63,368 bases of DNA from assembly GCA_014191975.1 (NCBI GenBank), contig BJHG01000004.1:1-63368 (forward strand), in the 5' to 3' direction. Numbering within the stretch: the first letter of the stretch is position 1; each line of letters opens with the position of its first letter. Positions 28,960 through 37,687 of this stretch are shown here, in pieces. The notes beneath the pieces were generated by a model. It did not search any database. It saw only the letters and a program-made list of their open reading frames with translations, and had not been told where the DNA came from. The stretch comes from Methylococcaceae bacterium (GTDB taxonomy: Bacteria; Pseudomonadota; Gammaproteobacteria; Methylococcales; Methylomonadaceae). The translations under genes were made by a program, and so were the position numbers.

Positions 28960-29811
28960 TTAAGCGGCAATTACAGAATTAACCAGCAATCCAATCCCTT
29001 CGATTTCAATTTTTACAACTTGCCCTGCTTTCAAATAACCACGCGGTTTCATTTTGACACCTACACCACTTGGTGTTCCGGTCGTAATAACATCACCCAC
29101 TTCCAACGTCATAGCTTGCGATAAATAGGCAATCATTTCGTAGCAATTAAACATCATGTAACAAGTATTTGAATTTTGGCGTAAATCATCATCAACCCAC
29201 GTTTTCAAACTCAAAGCATGTGGATTTGGAATTTCGTCTGCAGTCACCATCCATGGTCCCATTGGTCCATGGGTGTCGAACGATTTTCCAATTGTCCACG
29301 TTGGTGTTCTAAATTGCCAATCTCGCACCGTAACATCATTCACAATAGTAAATCCTGCAATCACATTATGTGCATTTTCGACAGAAACATTTTTGCAACG
29401 CTTGCCAATAACAAAGGCGAGTTCGCCTTCATAATCGGCTTTTTCAGACACAATCGGCATTTCAATCGCCATGCCATGACCAATCACGCAACTACTTTGT
29501 TTCGTAAAAAACATCGGATATTCAGGCTTTTCCAAACCCGTTTCGTCAATATGATCGGCATAATTCAAGCCGATACCTAAAAATTTTCTCGGACGTGGAA
29601 TGGGCGCCAGTAATTGAACATCCGCCAACAGAATTCGATGCGCTTCAGATGAAATCAGCCGCTGCATTTTTTGCAACGCGCTGTCGCCTTGTTCTAAAAA
29701 TATAATCATGTTGCTCGGCAAACTCGTGTCGCCCAACCCATCCACGATTTGGTTTTCAATCACCGCGCCAATGCGTGTTTGGTTTTGATAAGTAAATGTT
29801 GCTAATTTCAT
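28960..29811 (-). CDS. Fumarylacetoacetate hydrolase family protein
   Basis: 283 residues. The N-terminal 80 residues are a small lid-type domain. The catalytic FAH domain follows, with G-I-G-L-N-Y-A-D-H-I near 77, the metal ligands in K-A-D-Y-E-G-E-L-A-F-V-I-G near 124-136 and T-G-T-P-S-G-V-G near 241. Family members hydrolyse or decarboxylate 2-oxo acids (acylpyruvase, 2-hydroxyhepta-2,4-diene-1,7-dioate isomerase, oxaloacetate decarboxylase); the substrate cannot be read from sequence. It marks the left border of the restriction/toxin-antitoxin island. Confidence 0.9.
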   Translation of the reverse strand: MKLATFTYQNQTRIGAVIENQIVDGLGDTSLPSNMIIFLEQGDSALQKMQRLISSEAHRILLADVQLLAPIPRPRKFLGIGLNYADHIDETGLEKPEYPMFFTKQSSCVIGHGMAIEMPIVSEKADYEGELAFVIGKRCKNVSVENAHNVIAGFTIVNDVTVRDWQFRTPTWTIGKSFDTHGPMGPWMVTADEIPNPHALSLKTWVDDDLRQNSNTCYMMFNCYEMIAYLSQAMTLEVGDVITTGTPSGVGVKMKPRGYLKAGQVVKIEIEGIGLLVNSVIAA

Positions 29812-29832
29812 AAGTTGTTAAAAGTTAATGTG

Positions 29833-29937
29833 TTATAAATAATTCTTCAAAACCGCCGTTTTTCTACTCGCAGCACCATCAATCACTTTTTTTGCGTCGT
29901 CGATTTACTTTTCAAAGGTTTCAATTTGCGTGACCAT
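29833..29937 (-). pseudogene. hsdS 3'-end remnant R1 (105 bp)
   Basis: Read on the minus strand, this is a 35-codon copy of the end of the specificity gene at 32590-33999: V-T-Q-I-E-T-F-E-K, then TAA in place of a Gln codon, then I-D-D-A-K-K-V-I-D-G-A-A-S-R-K ending N-Y-L-stop. It begins exactly at the stop of the upstream relE copy (TAATG junction). It has the same length as R5 (32007-32111) but a different stop mutation, so the two have decayed independently. Confidence 0.9.
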
Positions 29938-30203
29938 TAAACGAATCGCTTATTTCTATCTTTTCTATCGCCAATTTTGATAATTTCAATCATTAACTGC
30001 TGCTCAAAAAGTGAATACACCACGCGATAATTTCCAACTCGAATACGATAACTCTGTTGTGAACCCGTAAGTTTTTTATAACCGTGCGGACGTGGATTTT
30101 CAGCTAATGCTGCAACGGCTTTCACAACGCTTTCACCTATTTCACGCGGCAATTGTGCAAGTTCCTTTTTCGCACTGGGTTTGATTTCAATGCGATATGT
30201 CAT
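29937..30203 (-). CDS. relE: RelE/ParE-family toxin, copy 1 (C-terminal deletion)
   Basis: 88 residues, RelE-superfamily mRNA interferase or ParE-like toxin. Motifs are E-I-K-P-S-A-K-K-E-L, L-T-G-S-Q-Q-S-Y-R-I-R-V-G-N-Y-R-V-V-Y and I-K-I-G-D-R-K-D. It is nearly identical to copy 2 (32111-32398) but lacks seven residues (V-Y-G-N-K-K-D) after R-K-D. The loss removes the conserved D-V-Y tyrosine, a likely slip between CTTTTCTATC-type repeats. It overlaps its antitoxin by 17 bases. Activity may be reduced. Confidence 0.88.
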   Translation of the reverse strand: MTYRIEIKPSAKKELAQLPREIGESVVKAVAALAENPRPHGYKKLTGSQQSYRIRVGNYRVVYSLFEQQLMIEIIKIGDRKDRNKRFV

Positions 30204-30375
30204 AACCCAACTCAGCTAAAACTTGCTCAAACGGTTGTGTGATTTCATTTCGACGTTCAGCGATCGCGGCTAAATCCTCTAAATCTTCCAGTAATTCTTG
30301 ATAATCAGACAACGACAAAATGACTGACATTTTTTCGCCTTCAGCATTCGTAATGTATTGGGGTTGAGCGTTCAT
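30187..30375 (-). CDS. Phd/YefM-type antitoxin, copy 1
   Basis: 62 residues. The start M-N-A-Q-P-Q-Y-I-T-N and the segment K-M-S-V-I-L-S-L-S-D-Y-Q-E-L-L are typical of Phd/YefM-type antitoxins that bind RelE-like toxins; the C-terminus (L-A-E-L-G-Y) is the toxin-binding part. It overlaps the toxin by 17 bases, antitoxin first, so the two are translationally coupled. AAAGGTG lies 6-7 bases upstream of the ATG. It differs from copy 2 at only a few residues (for example N-E-I-T versus N-E-T-T). Confidence 0.88.
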   Translation of the reverse strand: MNAQPQYITNAEGEKMSVILSLSDYQELLEDLEDLAAIAERRNEITQPFEQVLAELGYDISH

Positions 30376-30394
30376 TTCTTCACCTTTGGATATT

Positions 30395-30435
30395 TCATAA
30401 ATAATTTCTCAAAACCGGCGTTTTTCTACTCGCCG
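30395..30435 (-). repeat. hsdS 3'-end remnant R2 (41 bp)
   Basis: On the minus strand this copies the last 13 codons of the specificity gene including its stop: A-S-R-K-T-P-V-L-R-N-Y-L-stop. It separates the YafQ-type toxin gene from antitoxin copy 1 and contains the AAAAC/GTTTT mini-palindrome present in most copies. Confidence 0.85.
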
Positions 30436-30705
30436 TTAAAATAATTCACTGTGCGAACCCGTACGAACTAACACTAATTCATTAGGCTGCAATTGATAAA
30501 CGAGTAACCAATCGGGTTTGAAGTGACATTCACGATAATTGCGTAGATTTCCTGCCAGTGCGTGGTCGCAGTATTTTTCAGGCAACGGTTCATCATTTGC
30601 AAGCTGCTCAACAACGTTTTTCAATTCTTCCATCACATAATGCCCTGAACGCTTCAGACGCTTGTAATCTTTTTTAAACGATGAGATGGTAACAACTTCG
30701 CGCAT
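30436..30705 (-). CDS. yafQ: YafQ-family toxin (intact)
   Basis: 89-residue mRNA interferase of the YafQ branch of the RelE superfamily. Motifs are F-K-K-D-Y-K-R-L-K-R-S near 10, H-A-L-A-G-N-L-R-N-Y-R-E-C-H near 49, P-D-W-L-L-V-Y and the C-terminal R-T-G-S-H-S-E-L-F, with catalytic histidines in place. I chose ATG 30705, which overlaps the antitoxin's TGA by one base (TGATG). It has the same length as the broken copy at 30976-31245. The gene ends directly at repeat R2. Confidence 0.9.
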   Translation of the reverse strand: MREVVTISSFKKDYKRLKRSGHYVMEELKNVVEQLANDEPLPEKYCDHALAGNLRNYRECHFKPDWLLVYQLQPNELVLVRTGSHSELF

Positions 30706-30923
30706 CAATCATTATCCAAATCTGCCCACATGGCATTTAACGATTCATATCTTTGAACCTGACCATTACGCACCGCATCGATTGCGTTGAGCGTTTCTTG
30801 ATTCGGTACAATGTTTTCATACATCACAATCACTTTTGCCACCGATGCCGTGACACTTTCTGGAAGTTTTAAATGTATTTCGTGGGTGCTAGTGATTTGT
30901 GCCTGTAATTCTATTGCTTGCAT
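30705..30923 (-). CDS. Antitoxin of the YafQ module
   Basis: 72 residues. The N-terminal half (I-E-L-Q-A-Q-I-T-S-T-H-E-I-H-L-K-L-P) looks like a short DNA-binding strand-helix unit. The C-terminal half contains P-N-Q-E-T-L-N-A-I, which matches the antitoxin at 31242-31460. A GGAG lies 10 bases before the ATG, inside the repeated leader R3. An earlier ATG in that leader reads into a stop after five codons. It is paired one base ahead of yafQ. Confidence 0.8.
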   Translation of the reverse strand: MQAIELQAQITSTHEIHLKLPESVTASVAKVIVMYENIVPNQETLNAIDAVRNGQVQRYESLNAMWADLDND

Positions 30924-30975
30924 TTCATTTTCTCCGTTATAAATAATTCTAAAACCGCCGCCTTTCTACTCGCCG
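30924..30975 (-). repeat. hsdS 3'-end remnant plus shared leader, R3
   Basis: On the minus strand it reads GGCGAGTAGAAAGGCGGCGG (A-S-R-K-A-A), then a form of the hsdS end with two bases missing, then TTATAACGGAGAAAATGAA leading into the antitoxin start. It supplies the next gene's ribosome-binding site. Confidence 0.82.
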
Positions 30976-31245
30976 TTAAAATAATTCACTGTGCGAACCC
31001 GTGCTAGTTAAAACAACCTTGTCAGGCGTTAATTGATAAATCAGCAACCAATCAGGTTTGATGTGACATTCTTTGTGACCTCTCCAATTGCCCGTTAAAT
31101 TATGATCTTTGTGTTTTTCGAGTAGCGGCTGATTTTATGCGAGTAAATCTACAATTCCCAACAAATCATCAATCTTATAACGCTCCGAATGTTTAACGCG
31201 CTTTAAATCTTGTTTAAATTGCGATGTTTGAACAATTGTTTTCAC
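30976..31245 (-). pseudogene. YafQ-family toxin gene interrupted by an in-frame TAA
   Basis: Starting at GTG 31245 (overlapping the antitoxin stop, GTGA), the frame reads V-K-T-I-V-Q-T-S-Q-F-K-Q-D-L-K-R-V-K-H-S to codon 36. Codon 37 (31137-31135) is TAA. The frame then continues without shift through N-Q-P-L-L-E-K, H-I-K-P-D-W-L-L-I-Y-Q-L and T-G-S-H-S-E-L-F to TAA 30978-30976. It is 270 bases, exactly the length of the intact yafQ. A single point change has inactivated the toxin while its antitoxin remains open. Confidence 0.88.
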
Positions 31246-31460
31246 GCCTCGTCCCATTGTTGACGTAATTCGTTCAAACTTATCGCTTCATATTCGCCAC
31301 GTTCAGCGGCTTCCATCGCTTCAATGGTTTCTTGATTGGGCGTTTTATGTTCACTTTTAAACCTTACAAATTCAACAAATCGCAACACCTCAGTTAAATC
31401 TTCAATCGGTAGCAAGTGGGTTTGTTGATAAATAATTTGCTCTATTTCTTGTCGTTGCAT
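31242..31460 (-). CDS. Antitoxin of the broken YafQ module
   Basis: 72 residues: M-Q-R-Q-E-I-E-Q-I-I-Y-Q-Q-T, then P-N-Q-E-T-I-E-A-M-E-A-A-E-R-G and S-L-N-E-L-R-Q-Q-W-D. The C-terminal half is related to the antitoxin at 30705-30923. It starts after the repeated GGAG leader (R4). It overlaps the dead toxin's GTG by 4 bases. It may still act as an orphan antitoxin. Confidence 0.78.
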   Translation of the reverse strand: MQRQEIEQIIYQQTHLLPIEDLTEVLRFVEFVRFKSEHKTPNQETIEAMEAAERGEYEAISLNELRQQWDEA

Positions 31461-31512
31461 TTCATTCTCCGTTATAAATAATTTCTCAAAACCGCCGTTT
31501 TTCTACTCGCCG
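31461..31512 (-). repeat. hsdS 3'-end remnant plus shared leader, R4
   Basis: On the minus strand, G-E-stop of the DUF2442 gene merges into GGCGAGTAGAAAAACGGCGG (A-S-R-K-T-A-V-L-R-N-Y-L-stop in the hsdS frame), then TTATAACGGAGAATGAA before the antitoxin ATG. The TAG of the upstream gene lies within the repeat. Confidence 0.85.
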
Positions 31513-31745
31513 TTAATCCACAATTCATATTCGCTAATATCAATTTCATCATTCCAAAAAACAGCATAACCGCCTGTTTCAACTTGTACATTTTTGAAAA
31601 ATTCGGGATTCTGCAATGGCAAAAACATCTCCTTTTTTAACAAAGGTAAAATGTCGTACCGTTTTTGTTCGCCATTATTGAATTCAACTGACAAAACATG
31701 ATTGCTAATCGCGTGAGCTGATTGTATTTTTGGATATTTCATCAT
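31503..31745 (-). CDS. DUF2442 protein
   Basis: 80 residues from the ATG at 31745 (M-M-K-Y-P-K-I), overlapping the TAA of the DUF4160 gene by one base. An in-frame upstream extension to 31823 lies wholly inside DUF4160 and is unlikely. Features are V-L-S-V-E-F-N-N-G-E and F-W-N-D-E-I-D-I-S. DUF2442 partners DUF4160 in many bacteria and the pair is treated as a putative toxin-antitoxin unit; which member is toxic is unclear. Confidence 0.85.
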   Translation of the reverse strand: MMKYPKIQSAHAISNHVLSVEFNNGEQKRYDILPLLKKEMFLPLQNPEFFKNVQVETGGYAVFWNDEIDISEYELWINGE

Positions 31746-31993
31746 TATTTTAACGGGGGCAATTTGTGGAACTCTTGCAAATTCCACATTCTCATCAGTT
31801 CGTTTTGTTCTCGCGTTGCCCACTCAATAACCATTTTCATCGCTCGCGGCGGTAAATCACCTTCAATCATTTCAAGCGTTTCAATGTTGAATAGCGCGTT
31901 ATATTCACCATAAACGGCGTGAAAATGCGGCGGCGGGTGGTCACCAAAAAAGAGTTTAATCACAATTCCATAAAATCGGGTTACTTCTGGCAT
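31745..31993 (-). CDS. DUF4160 protein
   Basis: 82 residues with the family hallmark F-F-G-D-H-P-P-P-H-F-H-A-V-Y-G near 15-29, followed by E-M-I-E-G-D-L-P-P-R-A and an A-x2-H/N-x3-E-L-type helix. Start ATG 31993 follows the shared GGAG leader of repeat R5. It is coupled to DUF2442 by a one-base overlap. Putative toxin-antitoxin component. Confidence 0.88.
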   Translation of the reverse strand: MPEVTRFYGIVIKLFFGDHPPPHFHAVYGEYNALFNIETLEMIEGDLPPRAMKMVIEWATREQNELMRMWNLQEFHKLPPLK

Positions 31994-32006
31994 TTCATTT
32001 TCTCCG

Positions 32007-32111
32007 TTATAAATAATTCTTCAAAACCACCGCCTTTCTACTCGCCGCGTCATCAATTACTTTTTGCGCGTCGTCGATTTGCTTTTAAAAGGTTTCTATT
32101 TGCGTAACCAT
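32007..32111 (-). pseudogene. hsdS 3'-end remnant R5 (105 bp)
   Basis: A second long remnant of the specificity gene: V-T-Q-I-E-T-F, TAA in place of a Glu codon, then K-Q-I-D-D-A-Q-K-V-I-D-D-A-A-S-R-K-A-V-V-L-K-N-Y-L-stop. It begins at the stop of relE copy 2 (TAATG junction), just as R1 follows relE copy 1. Confidence 0.9.
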
Positions 32112-32398
32112 TAAATAAATCGTTTGCTTCTATCTTTTTTATTACCGTACACGTCTTTTCTATCGCCAATTTTGACAATTTCAATCATTAACTGCTGCTC
32201 AAAAAGTGAATACACCACGCGATAATTTCCAACTCGAATACGATAACTCTGTTGTGAACCCGTCAGTTTTTTATAACCGTGCGGACGTGGATTTTCAGCT
32301 AATGCTGCAATGGCTTTCACAACGCTTTCACCTATTTCACGCGGGAGTTGTGCAAGTTCCTTTTTCGCACTGGGCTTGATTTCAATGCGATAGCTCAT
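32111..32398 (-). CDS. relE: RelE/ParE-family toxin, copy 2 (complete)
   Basis: 95 residues, near-identical to copy 1 but with the C-terminal G-D-R-K-D-V-Y-G-N-K-K-D-R-S-K-R-F-I intact. Arg and Tyr of the D-R-K-D-V-Y motif match the end of RelE-type toxins. It overlaps its antitoxin by 17 bases. This module directly follows the real specificity gene and may be the parent of copy 1. Confidence 0.9.
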   Translation of the reverse strand: MSYRIEIKPSAKKELAQLPREIGESVVKAIAALAENPRPHGYKKLTGSQQSYRIRVGNYRVVYSLFEQQLMIEIVKIGDRKDVYGNKKDRSKRFI

Positions 32399-32570
32399 AA
32401 CCCAACTCAGCTAAAACTTGGTCAAACGGTTGTGTGGTTTCGTTTCGACGTTCAGCAATCGCGGCTAAATCCTCTAAATCTTCCAGTAATTCTTGATAAT
32501 CAGACAACGACAAAATGACTGACATTTTTTCGCCTTCAGCATTCGTAATGTATTGAGGTTGAGCGTTCAT
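32382..32570 (-). CDS. Phd/YefM-type antitoxin, copy 2
   Basis: 62 residues, the same protein as copy 1 apart from a few substitutions near the C-terminus (N-E-T-T-Q-P-F-D-Q, G-Y-E-L-S-H). AAAGGTG precedes the ATG. Only 19 bases separate it from the end of the specificity gene, so it may be expressed by read-through from the restriction genes. Confidence 0.88.
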   Translation of the reverse strand: MNAQPQYITNAEGEKMSVILSLSDYQELLEDLEDLAAIAERRNETTQPFDQVLAELGYELSH

Positions 32571-32589
32571 TTTTTCACCTTTGGATATT

Positions 32590-33999
32590 TCATAAATAAT
32601 TTCTCAAAACCGCCGCCTTTCTACTCGCCGCGCCATCAATCACTTTCTGCGCGTCGTCGATTTGCTTTTCAAAGGTTTCAATTTGCGTGACTAGCGTTTG
32701 TTGTTTAGACAAAGGTGGAACTGGTGTGAGAACAACTTGTAAATTCTGAACAGATAGCCCTGGCTGTGCTACTCCCGTTTTGTATTGGTTTAAGTTCAAA
32801 AATTTGAGTTGATAATAAAGCCAATTCACATCTATTCCAGAAAGAGGCGTTACGGCAATTGCGTGTTCAGTTGCATGAAATTTGCCCGTTACTTTATGAA
32901 CATTTCCACATAAAGCCCCTTGTCTTCCAATGAGCGGAAACGTTCCATCGTGTGTAAATTTTTTTGTATAACCGCGCAGTCCATTTCCACCATAACAAGG
33001 ATATAAACCAACATCTTTTTTATCGCTAATATCAGAAGCGGATACAAATTGCCCTGCTTTCAAACTACATATCGCCTCTAACTTTTTTGTTTCGCCATAT
33101 TTGTTCATTTCAATCAAAACATCCGTGATATTCGATTTTAGATTTTTGACATTTTGTTGTGCTTGTTCAACTTCGCCATCAATCGCTTCACATTCACTCA
33201 CGATTTGCTGTTGAATATCTAACGGCGGGAGAGGGATTTTATAAGGCGATAAATTTTCTCGTGTTATTTGTGGTTGTGCTGTGCCAGTTATCATAGTTGA
33301 TAAATCGCAATAAATGAGAGTTTCAAACAAATACTTTTTCAGAATATCTTTGCTTGAAGGTTGCGCCACCATTGCATTACCTGTAATCCAAGATTTTGGC
33401 TCTGTTACATTAACAGTCCCGCAAGTTGCACCTCGGCAAGTAATCGCAATCTCTGCTGATTCATGATTGAACTCATCGTAATATCCAATTACACCATTTG
33501 CACCAAATACTTTATAAAGCCCTGAATCTTTTATTTGAGCTGATGTTATTGTTTTTGGTTGATACAGTTTGCAAATATCGCCCAACTTCACTAAGTCCCA
33601 GCGCGTTTGAATTTCCACTGATTTTTTATCATTTAATGAAATAGCTTTAGAAAAATCTTTGCGTGAGAAATCGAGCATATCAACCAAATTCACCAACGAC
33701 GCGAAAGGCTTTAAAACGTCGGGGATTTCAACCATTTCACCTAAAAAATTCTGCGTGATTAAAGCGTTAATTTTTTCGGGATTGTCGCGGTTGGTTAAAT
33801 CATAAAGCGGCGTTAAATGCGTGCCGTTTGAATCGGTGGTTAATTGGATGCCTTCCGCGCCTTTTCTATCGCTCCAGCCATAACCTAAAAAGGCTTTTTG
33901 CTCTTTGTTGTCGGACGGGCTTTTGATGACTAAGACTTTTTGCGGGTTCGAATACGCCAACACGAAATAAAAGAGTTTGTCTTTTTCGATGGTTCGCAA
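32590..33999 (-). CDS. hsdS: Specificity (two-TRD) part of a split restriction-modification enzyme
   Basis: 469 codons. The first 130 residues are not specificity protein: R-T-I-E-K-D-K-L-F-Y-F-V-L-A-Y and A-F-L-G-Y-G-W-S-D-R-K-G-A-E-G-I belong to the tail of N6-adenine methylases. Two target-recognition domains follow (about 133-260 and 300-430), each ending in a conserved helix region (P-L-P-P-L-D-I-Q-Q-Q, V-P-P-L-S-K-Q-Q). The only upstream start is an internal TTG, so this is best read as the second half of one gene with 34026-36299, in another frame. An independent S protein could start at an internal Met near residue 113. Its 3' end is the source of the R1-R5 repeats. Confidence 0.85.
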   Translation of the reverse strand: MRTIEKDKLFYFVLAYSNPQKVLVIKSPSDNKEQKAFLGYGWSDRKGAEGIQLTTDSNGTHLTPLYDLTNRDNPEKINALITQNFLGEMVEIPDVLKPFASLVNLVDMLDFSRKDFSKAISLNDKKSVEIQTRWDLVKLGDICKLYQPKTITSAQIKDSGLYKVFGANGVIGYYDEFNHESAEIAITCRGATCGTVNVTEPKSWITGNAMVAQPSSKDILKKYLFETLIYCDLSTMITGTAQPQITRENLSPYKIPLPPLDIQQQIVSECEAIDGEVEQAQQNVKNLKSNITDVLIEMNKYGETKKLEAICSLKAGQFVSASDISDKKDVGLYPCYGGNGLRGYTKKFTHDGTFPLIGRQGALCGNVHKVTGKFHATEHAIAVTPLSGIDVNWLYYQLKFLNLNQYKTGVAQPGLSVQNLQVVLTPVPPLSKQQTLVTQIETFEKQIDDAQKVIDGAASRKAAVLRNYL

Positions 34000-34025
34000 A
34001 TAGGTTAAAAAGCGTTTTTCGAGTT

Positions 34026-34036
34026 CTATTTTTTTT
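34026..34036 (-). other. A8 slippery tract at the frameshift in the restriction gene
   Basis: On the minus strand the codons read CAA AAA AAA TAG. This is an A-AAA-AAA heptamer in the correct phase for -1 slippage, immediately before a stop. A -1 slip, or one extra A (A9), gives A-T-A-G-A-A and continues [15 protein letters not shown] into the specificity half. Confidence 0.85.
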
Positions 34037-36299
34037 GTTCGGACGTGAAATCTTTGAAAAACTTTTGCGCCCTTAATTTAGTGATGTCGGTGGAATTGTC
34101 AAAATCTTTTCGATAATCGACAAACATTTCATGCGCGAGTAATTGCGCCGACGGTTCGCCGTTTAACAGCGATTGATACTGTTCAAAGGGAATGTTGATG
34201 TGGTCGCAATAACGTTCGATAAAATGTCTGTCGTTATAGATTTCATCGCCGTCTTTTATGGGGCTAAACCAATCATTCACACTATTAAAATACTGGCTCG
34301 CTGCGGTAGGATTTTTATCTTTGCGTCGTAAAAATAACACTACGGTTGTCGTGCCAGTTGCGTCAAATGTCCGATTTTCTAATTGCACGAATGCCACAAC
34401 ATCAAAGTGTTTTAACAAAATTTCGCGGCTGCCAATATGTGTTTTGTCGCTATTTGAAAGAACCGAGGACGGAACAATAATTGCCGCAATGCCATTGGGT
34501 TTGAGTAATTGTTTGGCGCGTTCAATAAAAAAGCATTGAATGTTGCCGTTTTTTGTATCTGAAATGGTTTGGGTTAAATCGTAATTGCCGCGCGTTTCTG
34601 GGCTTAATGTGGTTAAAAATCCATCGACGGCAAACGGTGGATTGGCGACCAAAATGTCACAAGTTTCATTTTCGACTTTGATTGTTTTGCCGCGAATATC
34701 TTGCTTAATCGCATTGAGCACGTCGCAATAAATCACGTTAATTTCATCTTGCCCATACATAAACGCTGAAATTTTGGCGACTTTTGATAAGCGATATTCT
34801 TTTTCAACACCATAAATAGCTGAATAGTATTTTTTAAGTTCGTTTTCGTCGCTTGAATCAATAAACGCTTTAATTTCGCTGGCGTATTCCGTTAAAAAAT
34901 GTCCACAGCCGCAGGCATAATCAATGACTTTGGGCGGCATCGGATTGTTTTTAATGGTTTGTTCTAACCGAAGGGCGTGCAGAATAAATCGACAAATCGG
35001 AATCGGCGTGAAAAATTGCCCTTCGGATTGTTTAAAGCCTTTGTCTAAAAAAAGCTCAAACATATTTCCCAAAAATTGATTTTGTGTATCGCCCGTTAAT
35101 CTAACGCGCTGCCACAATTCTATAACATCCAATAAAATCGTCACGTTTTGATAAAACAATTTTTCATTATGAACATCAATAAAACCAAAATCGGAATTGG
35201 TGAAGTATTTTTGTTGCTTGAATAAATCTAAAATCGCATCTCTTACGGCATTTGTGCCTTGCTTGAAATAATCATCGAACGGCTTAGAGATTGCAGTTCT
35301 ATCAATTAACGTAATAGTTTCGCCTAAAAACTCGTCCATGCCTTGCTGATAAAGGCGTTGCAGTCGATCAATTAAATCAAAATGATTATCGGCATAAATG
35401 CCTTTCCAATAAAATTCCAATTCCTTTTCGTTTTTATCTTTTTCGGTTTTCTGACTATTTTTTTCATCAACGATTTTGCACAAAAACAAATTGATTAACT
35501 TATCAAACGCACTTTCTTTGCTTGAAACATTGTGCGTTCTTAAAATCTCCGCAAATTTATTAAATTTATCCGCCATTTCGGTGTCGTTTAAATGGCTAAA
35601 TGTCAGCTTTTTTTTGCCGATGTTGTAGATTTGAGCATCATTTTCAAAAATGCCATTTTGCTGATAATTCCTGCCATACGTTTCTGACCACGCTTTAAAT
35701 AAACCATTCGCATCGGTAGCATCTTTATAAAAAAAACGTTTTTGATTTTTACCTGCGTCTTTTTTAATTTCGTCTTCATCATCGTTTAAATCAATAACGT
35801 AATGATTAACATTGAGCGTTTCATTTTCAAAATTCGACGCATACAAACACAGGAATTTTGTACTTTTCTTCTGGTGTGCATAAGAAAAGAGCTGATAGAT
35901 TTTTTCTTTAGTTTTCAGCCAAGCCTCTTCAAATTCTTTGCCAGCCGTTTTGCATTCGATAATGAGCAGCGAATTACCTTGGCGATCTGAAACTAAAATA
36001 TCAGCCCGTCCTCCGCTCATGTCACGCCCGCTAGGAAATTGAGGTCCAAGTTCAATCGATTCGGGAGCGTAACCCTTCTCAAGTAATCGATGCACGCATT
36101 CAAACACCACAAAATTTTCGTTAGATGAAAAATTACTCGTGGTCAGATTGCTGATAATTAACGTATCAGGATAAATCAGCTTTTCATTTTCAAAATCAGC
36201 GGCTAACTCTGAATTCCCAAATTTTTTGCTGTAATGGCTGTCGTTTTGGGTGAAATTCAACGACAGCAATAGCAATTTGAATGAATCCGAATTTATCAT
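34026..36299 (-). CDS. Restriction endonuclease/N6-adenine methylase part of a split type IIB/IIG-like enzyme
   Basis: 757 residues. The N-terminal nuclease domain has the PD-(D/E)XK core G-G-R-A-D-I-L-V (Asp100) and L-L-I-I-E-C-K (Glu115, Lys117). A helical linker region follows. The methylase domain (about 400-757) has F-T-P-I-P-I, motif [10 protein letters not shown] near 458 and motif IV N-P-P-F near 550. It stops at TAG 34028-34026 after an A8 run; the methylase tail and recognition domains continue in the next frame. Restored, it would resemble single-chain R-M-S enzymes such as AloI or CjeI. Its ATG overlaps the argH stop (ATGA), so its translation may be coupled to argH. Confidence 0.88.
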
Positions 36300-37687
36300 A
36301 ATTGAATTAGATTTTGATGCGCTGTCGCAATCGCCAAACGGACGGTTTCAGGCGCAGTGCCGCCAATGTGTGAACGTGATGCTACTGAACCTTCGAGCGA
36401 TAAAACGTCAAACACTTCTTCACCAATCAGCGGCGAAAAGGTTTGCAATTCCGCCAACGAAATCTCCGACAAATCGCGTTTAGTTTCCACGCCTAAACGT
36501 ACCGCCAAACCCACAATTTCGTGCGCGTCACGAAACGCCAACCCTTTTCGCACCAAATAATCGGCTAAATCTGTCGCCGTCGCAAAACCTTGTTTTGCTG
36601 CACGATACATATTTTCTTTTTTTGCCATCAAATGCGGCACCATGTCGGCGTAAGCGCGTAAGCAATTCAACACCGTATCGACCGTATCAAAAAGCGGCTC
36701 TTTGTCTTCTTGATTGTCTTTGTTGTACGCTAACGGCTGACCTTTCATCAGCATCAATAACGCCATCAAATGACCCGTGACGCGCCCTGTTTTACCGCGC
36801 ACTAATTCGGGAACATCGGGATTTTTCTTTTGCGGCATAATCGATGAACCCGTGCAGAACGCATCGGGAATATCAATAAAATCAAACTGTGCGCTTGCCC
36901 ACAAAATCAATTCTTCCGAAAAACGCGACAAGTGCATCATCAAAATACTGGCGGCAGCGGTAAATTCAATCGCAAAATCGCGGTCGCTCACTGAATCCAA
37001 CGAATTCGCCGAAGGACGTGAAAAACCTAATAATTCCGCGCTGAAATGGCGGTCAATCGGGTAACTCGTTCCCGCCAACGCCGCCGCGCCCAACGGTGAA
37101 ACATTCAACCGTTTTGCACAATCGCGCAAACGGTCAGCGTCACGGTTTAACATTTCAAACCACGCCATCAAATGATGACCGAAAACGATAGGTTGCGCGA
37201 CTTGCAAATGCGTAAAACCCGCCATAATGGTGTCGGTGTGTTGCGCGGCTAAATCTAAAATCGCTGTTTGTAAGCGCGTTAATTCAGTGCCAATCGTGGC
37301 AATTTCATCACGCAAATACAGCCGAATATCCGTTGCAACTTGGTCATTTCGAGAACGTCCCGTGTGTAATTTTTTTCCCGCAATACCAATTAAATTGGTC
37401 AATCGCGCTTCGATATTCATGTGAACATCTTCTTGTTGAATAGACCATTCAAATTCGCCACGTGCAATTTCGTCGTGAATTTGCGTCAAGCCGCTAATAA
37501 TTAAATCGCGCTCTTCGTCGGTTAAAACGCCGACTTTACAAAGCATCTTGGCGTGTGCCAGAGAACCTTGAATGTCTTGATTTGCCATGCGTTTATCGAA
37601 ATCAACCGATGCGGTAAAAATTTCGACAAATGCGTCGGTGGCTTGCGCGAATCGTGCGCTCGAGAGTTTTTGAGAATTGATATTCAT
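36296..37687 (-). CDS. argH: Argininosuccinate lyase
   Basis: Last step of arginine synthesis: argininosuccinate to arginine plus fumarate. It has 463 residues of the fumarase/aspartase superfamily. Signature [12 protein letters not shown] near 283; also S-R-N-D-Q-V-A-T-D near 113 and T-H-L-Q-V-A-Q-P near 160. The stop TGA overlaps the restriction gene's ATG by 4 bases, so argH is the insertion boundary of the island yet intact. Confidence 0.97.

Follow-up and report, generated by a model that had tools for sequence, protein, structure and literature searches.

A 63,368-nucleotide stretch of DNA (hereafter the window; contig BJHG01000004.1 of assembly GCA_014191975.1, a Methylococcaceae bacterium that probably feeds on methane) carries on its minus strand a gene for a Type IIG restriction-modification (R-M) enzyme, downstream of which lie five toxin-antitoxin (TA) modules set apart by five copies of the 3' end, or tail, of the enzyme gene; a sixth copy is the gene's own end. 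The explanation that we prefer, with about an even chance of being correct, is that homologous recombination between gene tails enlarges the array while the resident addiction modules are kept. It appears to be supported by toxin-tail junctions that are shared with different continuations in three cases, by an allelic series in 18 genomes, by the mosaic structure of the enzyme gene and by similar chains in other genera.

A repeat search of the window returned six direct copies (29826-29873, 30388-30435, 30928-30975, 31465-31512, 32000-32047 and 32583-32630), confirming a preliminary description in which module borders were marked by six copies of a specificity gene's 3' end, all on one strand. 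That gene had been taken for hsdS; instead, PADLOC PDLC03624 matched both open reading frames (ORFs) of the window's enzyme gene, indicating that the supposed hsdS is the C-terminal, specificity half of a Type IIG restriction-modification-specificity enzyme. With a 60-nucleotide (nt) tail query against the window's own genome (2.13 Mb, 131 contigs), these six copies were recovered at E values of at most 2.7e-9, and the next match had an E value of 0.11. Two further matches in this genome (L007 and L008) were considered as tail loci and rejected, as on reading they resemble chance. A dispersed repeat, the alternative named in the preliminary description, was ruled out by the confinement of the six copies to one locus.

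Read along the minus strand, the gene order is argH, the enzyme gene (two ORFs), relBE, tail copy R5, DhiT/DUF2442, R4, an antitoxin-like ORF with a broken yafQ-like toxin, R3, relN-like/yafQ, R2, relBE, R1 and FAH; the window thus holds several closely spaced TA pairs of differing classes (relBE twice, DhiT/DUF2442, and yafQ twice, one of them broken). The specificity half has its own ORF (32590..33999; PADLOC PDLC03624, ORF list), in which the in-place tail copy occupies approximately 32591-32691. Module 1 comprises a relB-like antitoxin (32382..32570; PF18506) and a relE/parE-like toxin (32111..32398; PF05016) and is followed by R5 (32008..32108), a 101-nt copy with 10 mismatches to the gene's own end and an internal stop, which continues into the leader of module 2. 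In module 2, a DUF4160/DhiT-like toxin (31745..31993; an NF048015 match below its cut-off) is paired with a DUF2442 (DhiA-like) gene (PF10387), listed as the ORF 31503..31823 with a real start probably closer to 31740; the 40-nt R4 (31473..31512; 3 mismatches) covers the last 10 nt of this gene and provides its stop codon. Module 3 consists of an antitoxin-like ORF (31242..31460; ORF list) without a Pfam or NCBIfam match and a yafQ-like toxin (30979..31245; 53% identical to that of module 4) broken by an internal stop, and behind it lies R3 (30936..30975), a copy of approximately 40 nt with a small deletion. Module 4 (RelN-like antitoxin, 30705..30923, NF050107, weak and below cut-off; yafQ toxin, 30436..30708, PF15738 and TIGR00053) precedes R2 (30396..30435; 40 nt, 3 mismatches), which is followed by the relBE-type leader. 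Module 5 holds relB-like (30187..30375) and relE/parE-like (29937..30203) genes, both from the Pfam search, and is closed by R1 (29834..29934; 101 nt, 11 mismatches, internal stop). The two relBE copies are 95.9% identical. R3 was delimited by the repeat search and reading, and the other four by ungapped extension. No recombinase gene was seen inside the array: between the specificity half and FAH, the list of ORFs of at least 40 amino acids (aa), which does not cover the rest of the genome, contains no large ORF beyond the module genes.

Two long copies and three of approximately 40 nt had been described previously, and this division holds, with the long copies measuring 101 rather than 105 nt by ungapped extension. 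The long copies were also said to begin exactly at the relE stop codon; R1 and R5 in fact start 2 nt past it. R2 starts immediately past the yafQ stop, and across 14 junctions the tail begins at the earliest 10 nt upstream and at the latest 62 nt downstream of where the stop codon before it ends (the G007 stop position used being 3 nt off). The repeats are long and variable, from 20 to 101 nt across the copies examined, and the common leader of R3, R4 and R5 is present as described. Regarding the claim that the modules are promoterless, a sigma-70 consensus scan of the coding strand found no site in any of the five remnants and one within the broken toxin (31161-31132), while on the opposite strand two sites overlap R1 (29815-29843) and the gene's own tail (32572-32600). 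With 13 sites observed and 18.7 in shuffles, the scan agrees weakly with promoterless modules, which presumably share a transcript with the enzyme gene.

Eighteen congeneric genomes (G000-G017, the window's own being G000) were compared at the site between the genes that we take to be argH (36296..37687, upstream) and an FAH-family gene (28960..29811, downstream), both on the minus strand. The 60-nt tail query matched 10 of 151 genomes: the window's own genome, seven congeneric ones and two others (G021 and G038) whose matches resemble chance. The site is empty, with argH within approximately 100 bp of FAH, in 8/18 genomes (G001, G002, G003, G005, G007, G012, G013 and G016), and it holds the enzyme gene without TA in G008 and G014. 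In G008, the enzyme gene stands directly before FAH with a single tail; in G009 and G010, relBE, whose leader is that of modules 1 and 5, stands between the enzyme gene's tail and a second, 105-nt tail. G015 has the enzyme gene, relN-yafQ and then a tail (33 nt, 9 mismatches) that was missed in the tail-copy test (as L153) and is taken as probable because it is degenerate. The window's relBE and relN-yafQ types thus each occur singly behind the enzyme gene in relatives (G009/G010 and G015, respectively), and five modules at the site were seen in the window only. A DhiT-type module lies between two tails without an enzyme gene in G017; a tail remnant alone is present in G004 and probably in G006 (short, at a contig end); and in G011, where argH is approximately 500 bp away from FAH, no state was assigned. 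The enzyme gene of G007 lies at another site, adjoining a gene that is presumably tadA, and is followed by a tail-bearing DhiT-type module whose partner gene was labeled DUF2442-like by resemblance only. Overall, module content varies at one chromosomal site. Variable content beside a constant repeat, and empty sites, are what the preliminary description had proposed to look for in relatives; its view of cassette-like additions at a fixed gene end is supported in part, by content that varies, and joints that change, at the gene tail; one tail-bearing module lies elsewhere, in G004. With relatives carrying no pair, a single pair or different pairs at this position, the tail looks like a seam for collecting TA pairs. 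Upstream of the tail remnant and FAH in G004 (L077, contig C81, 2319-3728), three similar tandem ORFs of approximately 140-150 aa, which we assume to be hemerythrin-like, were observed on the opposite strand.

The joints themselves were compared base by base. The relE-tail junction is identical in R5, R1, G009 and G010 and then leads into the DhiT leader in R5 and into the FAH leader in R1, G009 and G010. Likewise, the yafQ-tail junction is identical in R3 and R2, followed by the relN leader in R3 and the relBE leader in R2. In G007 and G017, at differing chromosomal sites, the DhiA-like gene meets its tail at one and the same position, and beyond the tail come tadA-side sequence in G007 and the FAH leader in G017. 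These alignments indicate that the tail is where joints are exchanged. Independent insertions are unlikely to have settled on one and the same base; a simpler reading is that sequence was exchanged within tails or that toxin-tail units were copied. In a 99-nt comparison, no clear grouping emerged beyond R5 and G009: R5 is closest to the G009 tail (97.0%; own gene end, 90.9%), and the G009 tail is closest to R5, with 96.0% identity to both the gene end and the tail of G010 and 92.9% to its own gene end. The idea that relBE-linked tails as a group are nearer each other than their own gene ends was dropped; the 105-nt comparison behind it took in 6 nt adjoining the relE stop and overstated the grouping.

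The enzyme gene also carries traces of exchange. Its restriction-methylation half (34026..36299, minus strand; PDLC03624 positions 1-743, E value of 1.8e-300) starts in overlap with the argH stop. The gene is a single open frame of 1249-1284 aa in G007, G008, G009, G010 and G015 and two ORFs in the window; the 1266-aa chain of G007 contains HSDR_N_2 (nuclease-like; just under cut-off), N6_Mtase (methylase) and two Methylase_S (specificity) domains and matches PDLC03624 end to end. The first 2400 alignment columns of G000 and G010 have a nucleotide identity of 48-76%, and the last 514 have 95-96%; for G010 and G009, the values are 96-100% in the first 2600 columns, 50-74% in the next 1200 and 94% in the last 114. 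These profiles indicate that the gene is a mosaic and that recombination has occurred within it, near its end too. The halves of the window's gene are parted at 34020-34040 by a frame change beside a run of eight A, and intact fused relatives exist; the split could reflect phase variation, decay or assembly error.

Among 29 regions of the family with a specificity-gene match, tail copies adjoin TA genes behind a Type IIG-type gene in G192 (two copies), G191, G189 and G074, and behind another specificity family in G084. A similar anatomy is found in three other genera, g13 (G192, G191 and G189), g10 (G074) and g22 (G084), with ParE- and PIN-type toxins in the chains. The copies in G074 (1 mismatch in 36) and G084 (2 in 62) are close. 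In G084 (L144 reversed, 783-1811), two successive antitoxin-like ORFs have identical N-terminal stretches of approximately 42 residues and then diverge, a PIN toxin comes after the first and a further toxin-like ORF after the second, and the repeat at this locus spans the gene tail and the antitoxin start. A module directly behind the gene, with no tail copy found, was seen in G198 (whose contig ends approximately 670 nt on), G054, G161 (BrnT) and G112, the last from another family of the order and with a Zeta-like gene behind the enzyme gene. The VapBC directly behind the gene in G198 is of the same kind as that buried in the chains of G192, G189 and G191, where the tail and leader before VapB match G198 at 20/20 and 18-19/20 positions, respectively, versus 19/20 and 3-6/20 for the own gene end. 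These junctions equal that of G198 and show that the new module entered between the gene and the resident module, which fits tail recombination and target duplication alike. We had treated leaders matching another genome as excluding target duplication; this argument was dropped, the leader belonging to the following module.

The preferred explanation, recombination between tails, can be laid out as follows. The locus consists of a Type IIG R-M gene and then a stack of probably promoterless TA modules linked by copies of the gene's 3' end. A resident gene end or tail copy would recombine with a tail on incoming DNA, in the form either of a different allele of the locus or of a circle holding a single tail and a single module. 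The new enzyme-TA allele or module would thereby be joined in front, and the older TA pair would remain, together with the final stretch of the older gene. Retention of older modules would be favored because loss of a resident antitoxin poisons the cell. The first joining of a TA type to a tail would be a rarer event just past the toxin stop, possibly by target duplication.

Several observations weigh against recombination between tails. No addition or excision event was observed, and tails of 20-101 nt are short for RecA. Over 99 nt, the G010 tail is tied at 96.0% between the G009 tail and the G000 gene end (own gene end, 93.9%), and R1 has 89.9% identity to four sequences, with no preference. 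R4, R2 and the G074 copy match their own tail as well as any other, and the tail in G192, G189 and G191 tells own from foreign by 1/20 nt only. As a leader belongs to the next module, its match to other genomes is equally expected if modules were inserted in front by target duplication. The G004 module outside the locus is not tail-to-tail, and the contigs of G007, G008, G009, G010, G014 and G015 are metagenome-assembled. The tail pattern was seen again in separate assemblies, and common read lengths exceed the length of the tails.

Alternatively, each TA module might have been inserted at the gene 3' end with a long target duplication of 20-105 bp, so that the copy after the insert represents the old gene end and its old neighbor. 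We consider this unlikely, although it would account for the G192 tail and leader equal to the insert-free junction of G198, for the close copies in G074, G084 and R2, and for repeats that flank the insert in G009/G010 where the insert-free G008 has one copy; the long, variable repeats are also as reported for R-M units (PMC3874152). Independent inserts would nevertheless have to hit the same nucleotide past the toxin stop in R5/R1, R3/R2 and G007/G017, with differing sequence beyond the tail, and this result keeps tail recombination ahead of target duplication; for the later copies, the shared junctions speak against both repeats coming from the recipient's own target, although each first junction may still have arisen by target duplication. 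We find it quite unlikely that the tails were copied passively, through ordinary duplication and deletion events within a defense region rich in TA genes, with no special role of their own. Tail copies without TA behind 6/97 type I specificity genes fit such a history, as does a Cytophagales locus (L158) with a 103-nt, 96% copy of a Type IIG gene end 53 nt after the gene, a gap too small for a module; on the other hand, TA pairs of differing classes, each with a tail and its own leader, do not result from duplicating one module, and similar chains recur in three other genera.

The tail could also be the attachment site of a recombinase acting in trans, and this site-specific cassette model, which we judge improbable, draws on the module of G004. 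There, a PemK-type toxin with a small upstream ORF lies between two genes presumed to be bioB and bioF, with an array-type leader before it, a tail after it and CAGTTTTTAT at both ends; the same recombinase would have placed it. Among the 18 genomes, bioF was found in 17; bioB adjoins it without an insert in G003 and G007, and in the other 14 no bioB was present within the stretch read beside bioF. The leader pattern, at up to 2 mismatches, occurs at 3 places in these genomes, every one at tail-bearing modules, and the right junction keeps a constant position, the tail end. Against the model, no integron integrase passed the TIGR02249 cut-off in any of the 18 genomes, in line with the earlier remark that no integrase was in sight (the assemblies are incomplete and other recombinase classes were not searched); weak tyrosine-recombinase matches were present in all 18, and likewise in all 14 controls. 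Single-strand folding of seven junctions was no better than shuffles in six (z of -1.57 to 0.93), R2 having a z of -2.69, and no fold common to the tails was seen; the tail also follows the local gene between genera. An integron is not supported, for want of an integrase over cut-off and of a conserved folded site. Finally, we give very little credence to a tail maintained for spacing, ribosome binding or translational coupling of the next antitoxin. Many copies do have a GGAG-type leader behind the tail, and some genes end within the tail, yet the likely ribosome-binding site sits past the tail, and tails range in length between 20 and 101 nt. In addition, R1 and R5 have stops in the old frame, and R1 leads to FAH without a GGAG-type leader.

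R-M units inserted with long, variable target duplication have been described by the Kobayashi group (PMC3874152, PMC3031569). They resemble the present locus in their flanking direct repeats of approximately 100 bp, their addiction genes and the proposed amplification by crossing-over between repeats; here, in contrast, part of the R-M gene itself makes up the repeat, TA pairs stacked behind this gene form the cargo, and one toxin-tail junction has several continuations. For TA islands, which likewise contain closely spaced TA pairs of differing classes, Makarova et al. (2009; PMC2701414) argued that tandem duplication cannot explain them and suggested preferred regions or multi-pair cassettes, whereas here the seam, an R-M gene tail, and the allelic series suggest how an island is constructed. 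The pneumococcal tvr locus (PMC6265443), in which specificity domains are shuffled by the TvrR recombinase via circles, also combines specificity-gene parts, direct repeats and one TA pair, of phd-doc type, in one locus; unlike tvr, the array has no recombinase and its TA content is variable. With integron cassette arrays, the locus shares promoterless, one-orientation modules behind a fixed point, but not an integron integrase above cut-off or a general folded site. Among the matches listed in a search of open-licence papers by title and opening of the abstract, no such TA array behind restriction-gene tails was found.

The locus bears on how islands of unrelated TA pairs originate: here the joining seam can be seen, and empty, single-module and multi-module states occur at a single site. 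Two kinds of addiction genes, a restriction enzyme and TA pairs, are tied into one recombining locus, and replacement of a restriction allele is predicted to tend to leave the previous TA pair behind. Put more broadly, and as a tentative suggestion about which we have more doubt than confidence, the restriction-gene end could be a docking seam that works without an integrase and where addiction modules of many classes are gathered, stacked, swapped between strains by ordinary recombination and sometimes exported, with addiction itself driving growth, since no resident antitoxin can be dropped.

In wider surveys, a TA gene came first behind the Type IIG-type specificity end at 13/25 loci of the order, judged by eye from ORF lists and Pfam matches (yes in G000, G007, G009, G010, G015, G054, G074, G112, G161, G189, G191, G192 and G198; no in G008, G014, G034, G063, G066a, G165, G250, G275a, G275b, G285, G292 and G304). 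We presume that G165 may contain a toxin remnant. Left out of the 25 were G286 and G296 (less than 250 nt downstream), 12 regions with other specificity families, and G534 and G535 (other orders; no TA seen). As a control, the first ORFs behind type I specificity genes (66 ORFs, 97 loci) included Phd/YefM, VapB, DUF4160 and DarT once each and Fic six times, among the best 25 of 45 families; the two counts were made differently and do not form a formal test. Other defense-like genes were frequent in this slot, with AAA_13 in 12/66 ORFs and Fic in 6/66.

Tail copies of at least 18 nt were found downstream of 6 of 97 testable type I specificity genes (100 regions), compared with 2/290 within-gene and 1/291 cross-genome windows; inspection of the six revealed no enclosed TA pair in any of them. 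Tail copies as a general property of specificity genes were rejected on these numbers. In a collection of 84,980 species, 47 related loci were found, of which 42 were testable (5 lacked a readable end); copies around modules were seen only in L148, L149 and L164, all of the window's genus, and 5/420 within-gene control windows gave copies. Matches of 10-19 nt in L159, L160, L161, L162, L171-L174 and L176 were taken as chance without reading. A plasmid search gave specificity-gene similarity only, among the best 20 of 22 records. One type I locus (L228, contig C57 of G254) has the same geometry with a different cargo: the specificity gene ends at 661, a 58-nt, 95% copy lies at approximately 2436-2493, and an AAA-like, non-TA gene is enclosed between them.

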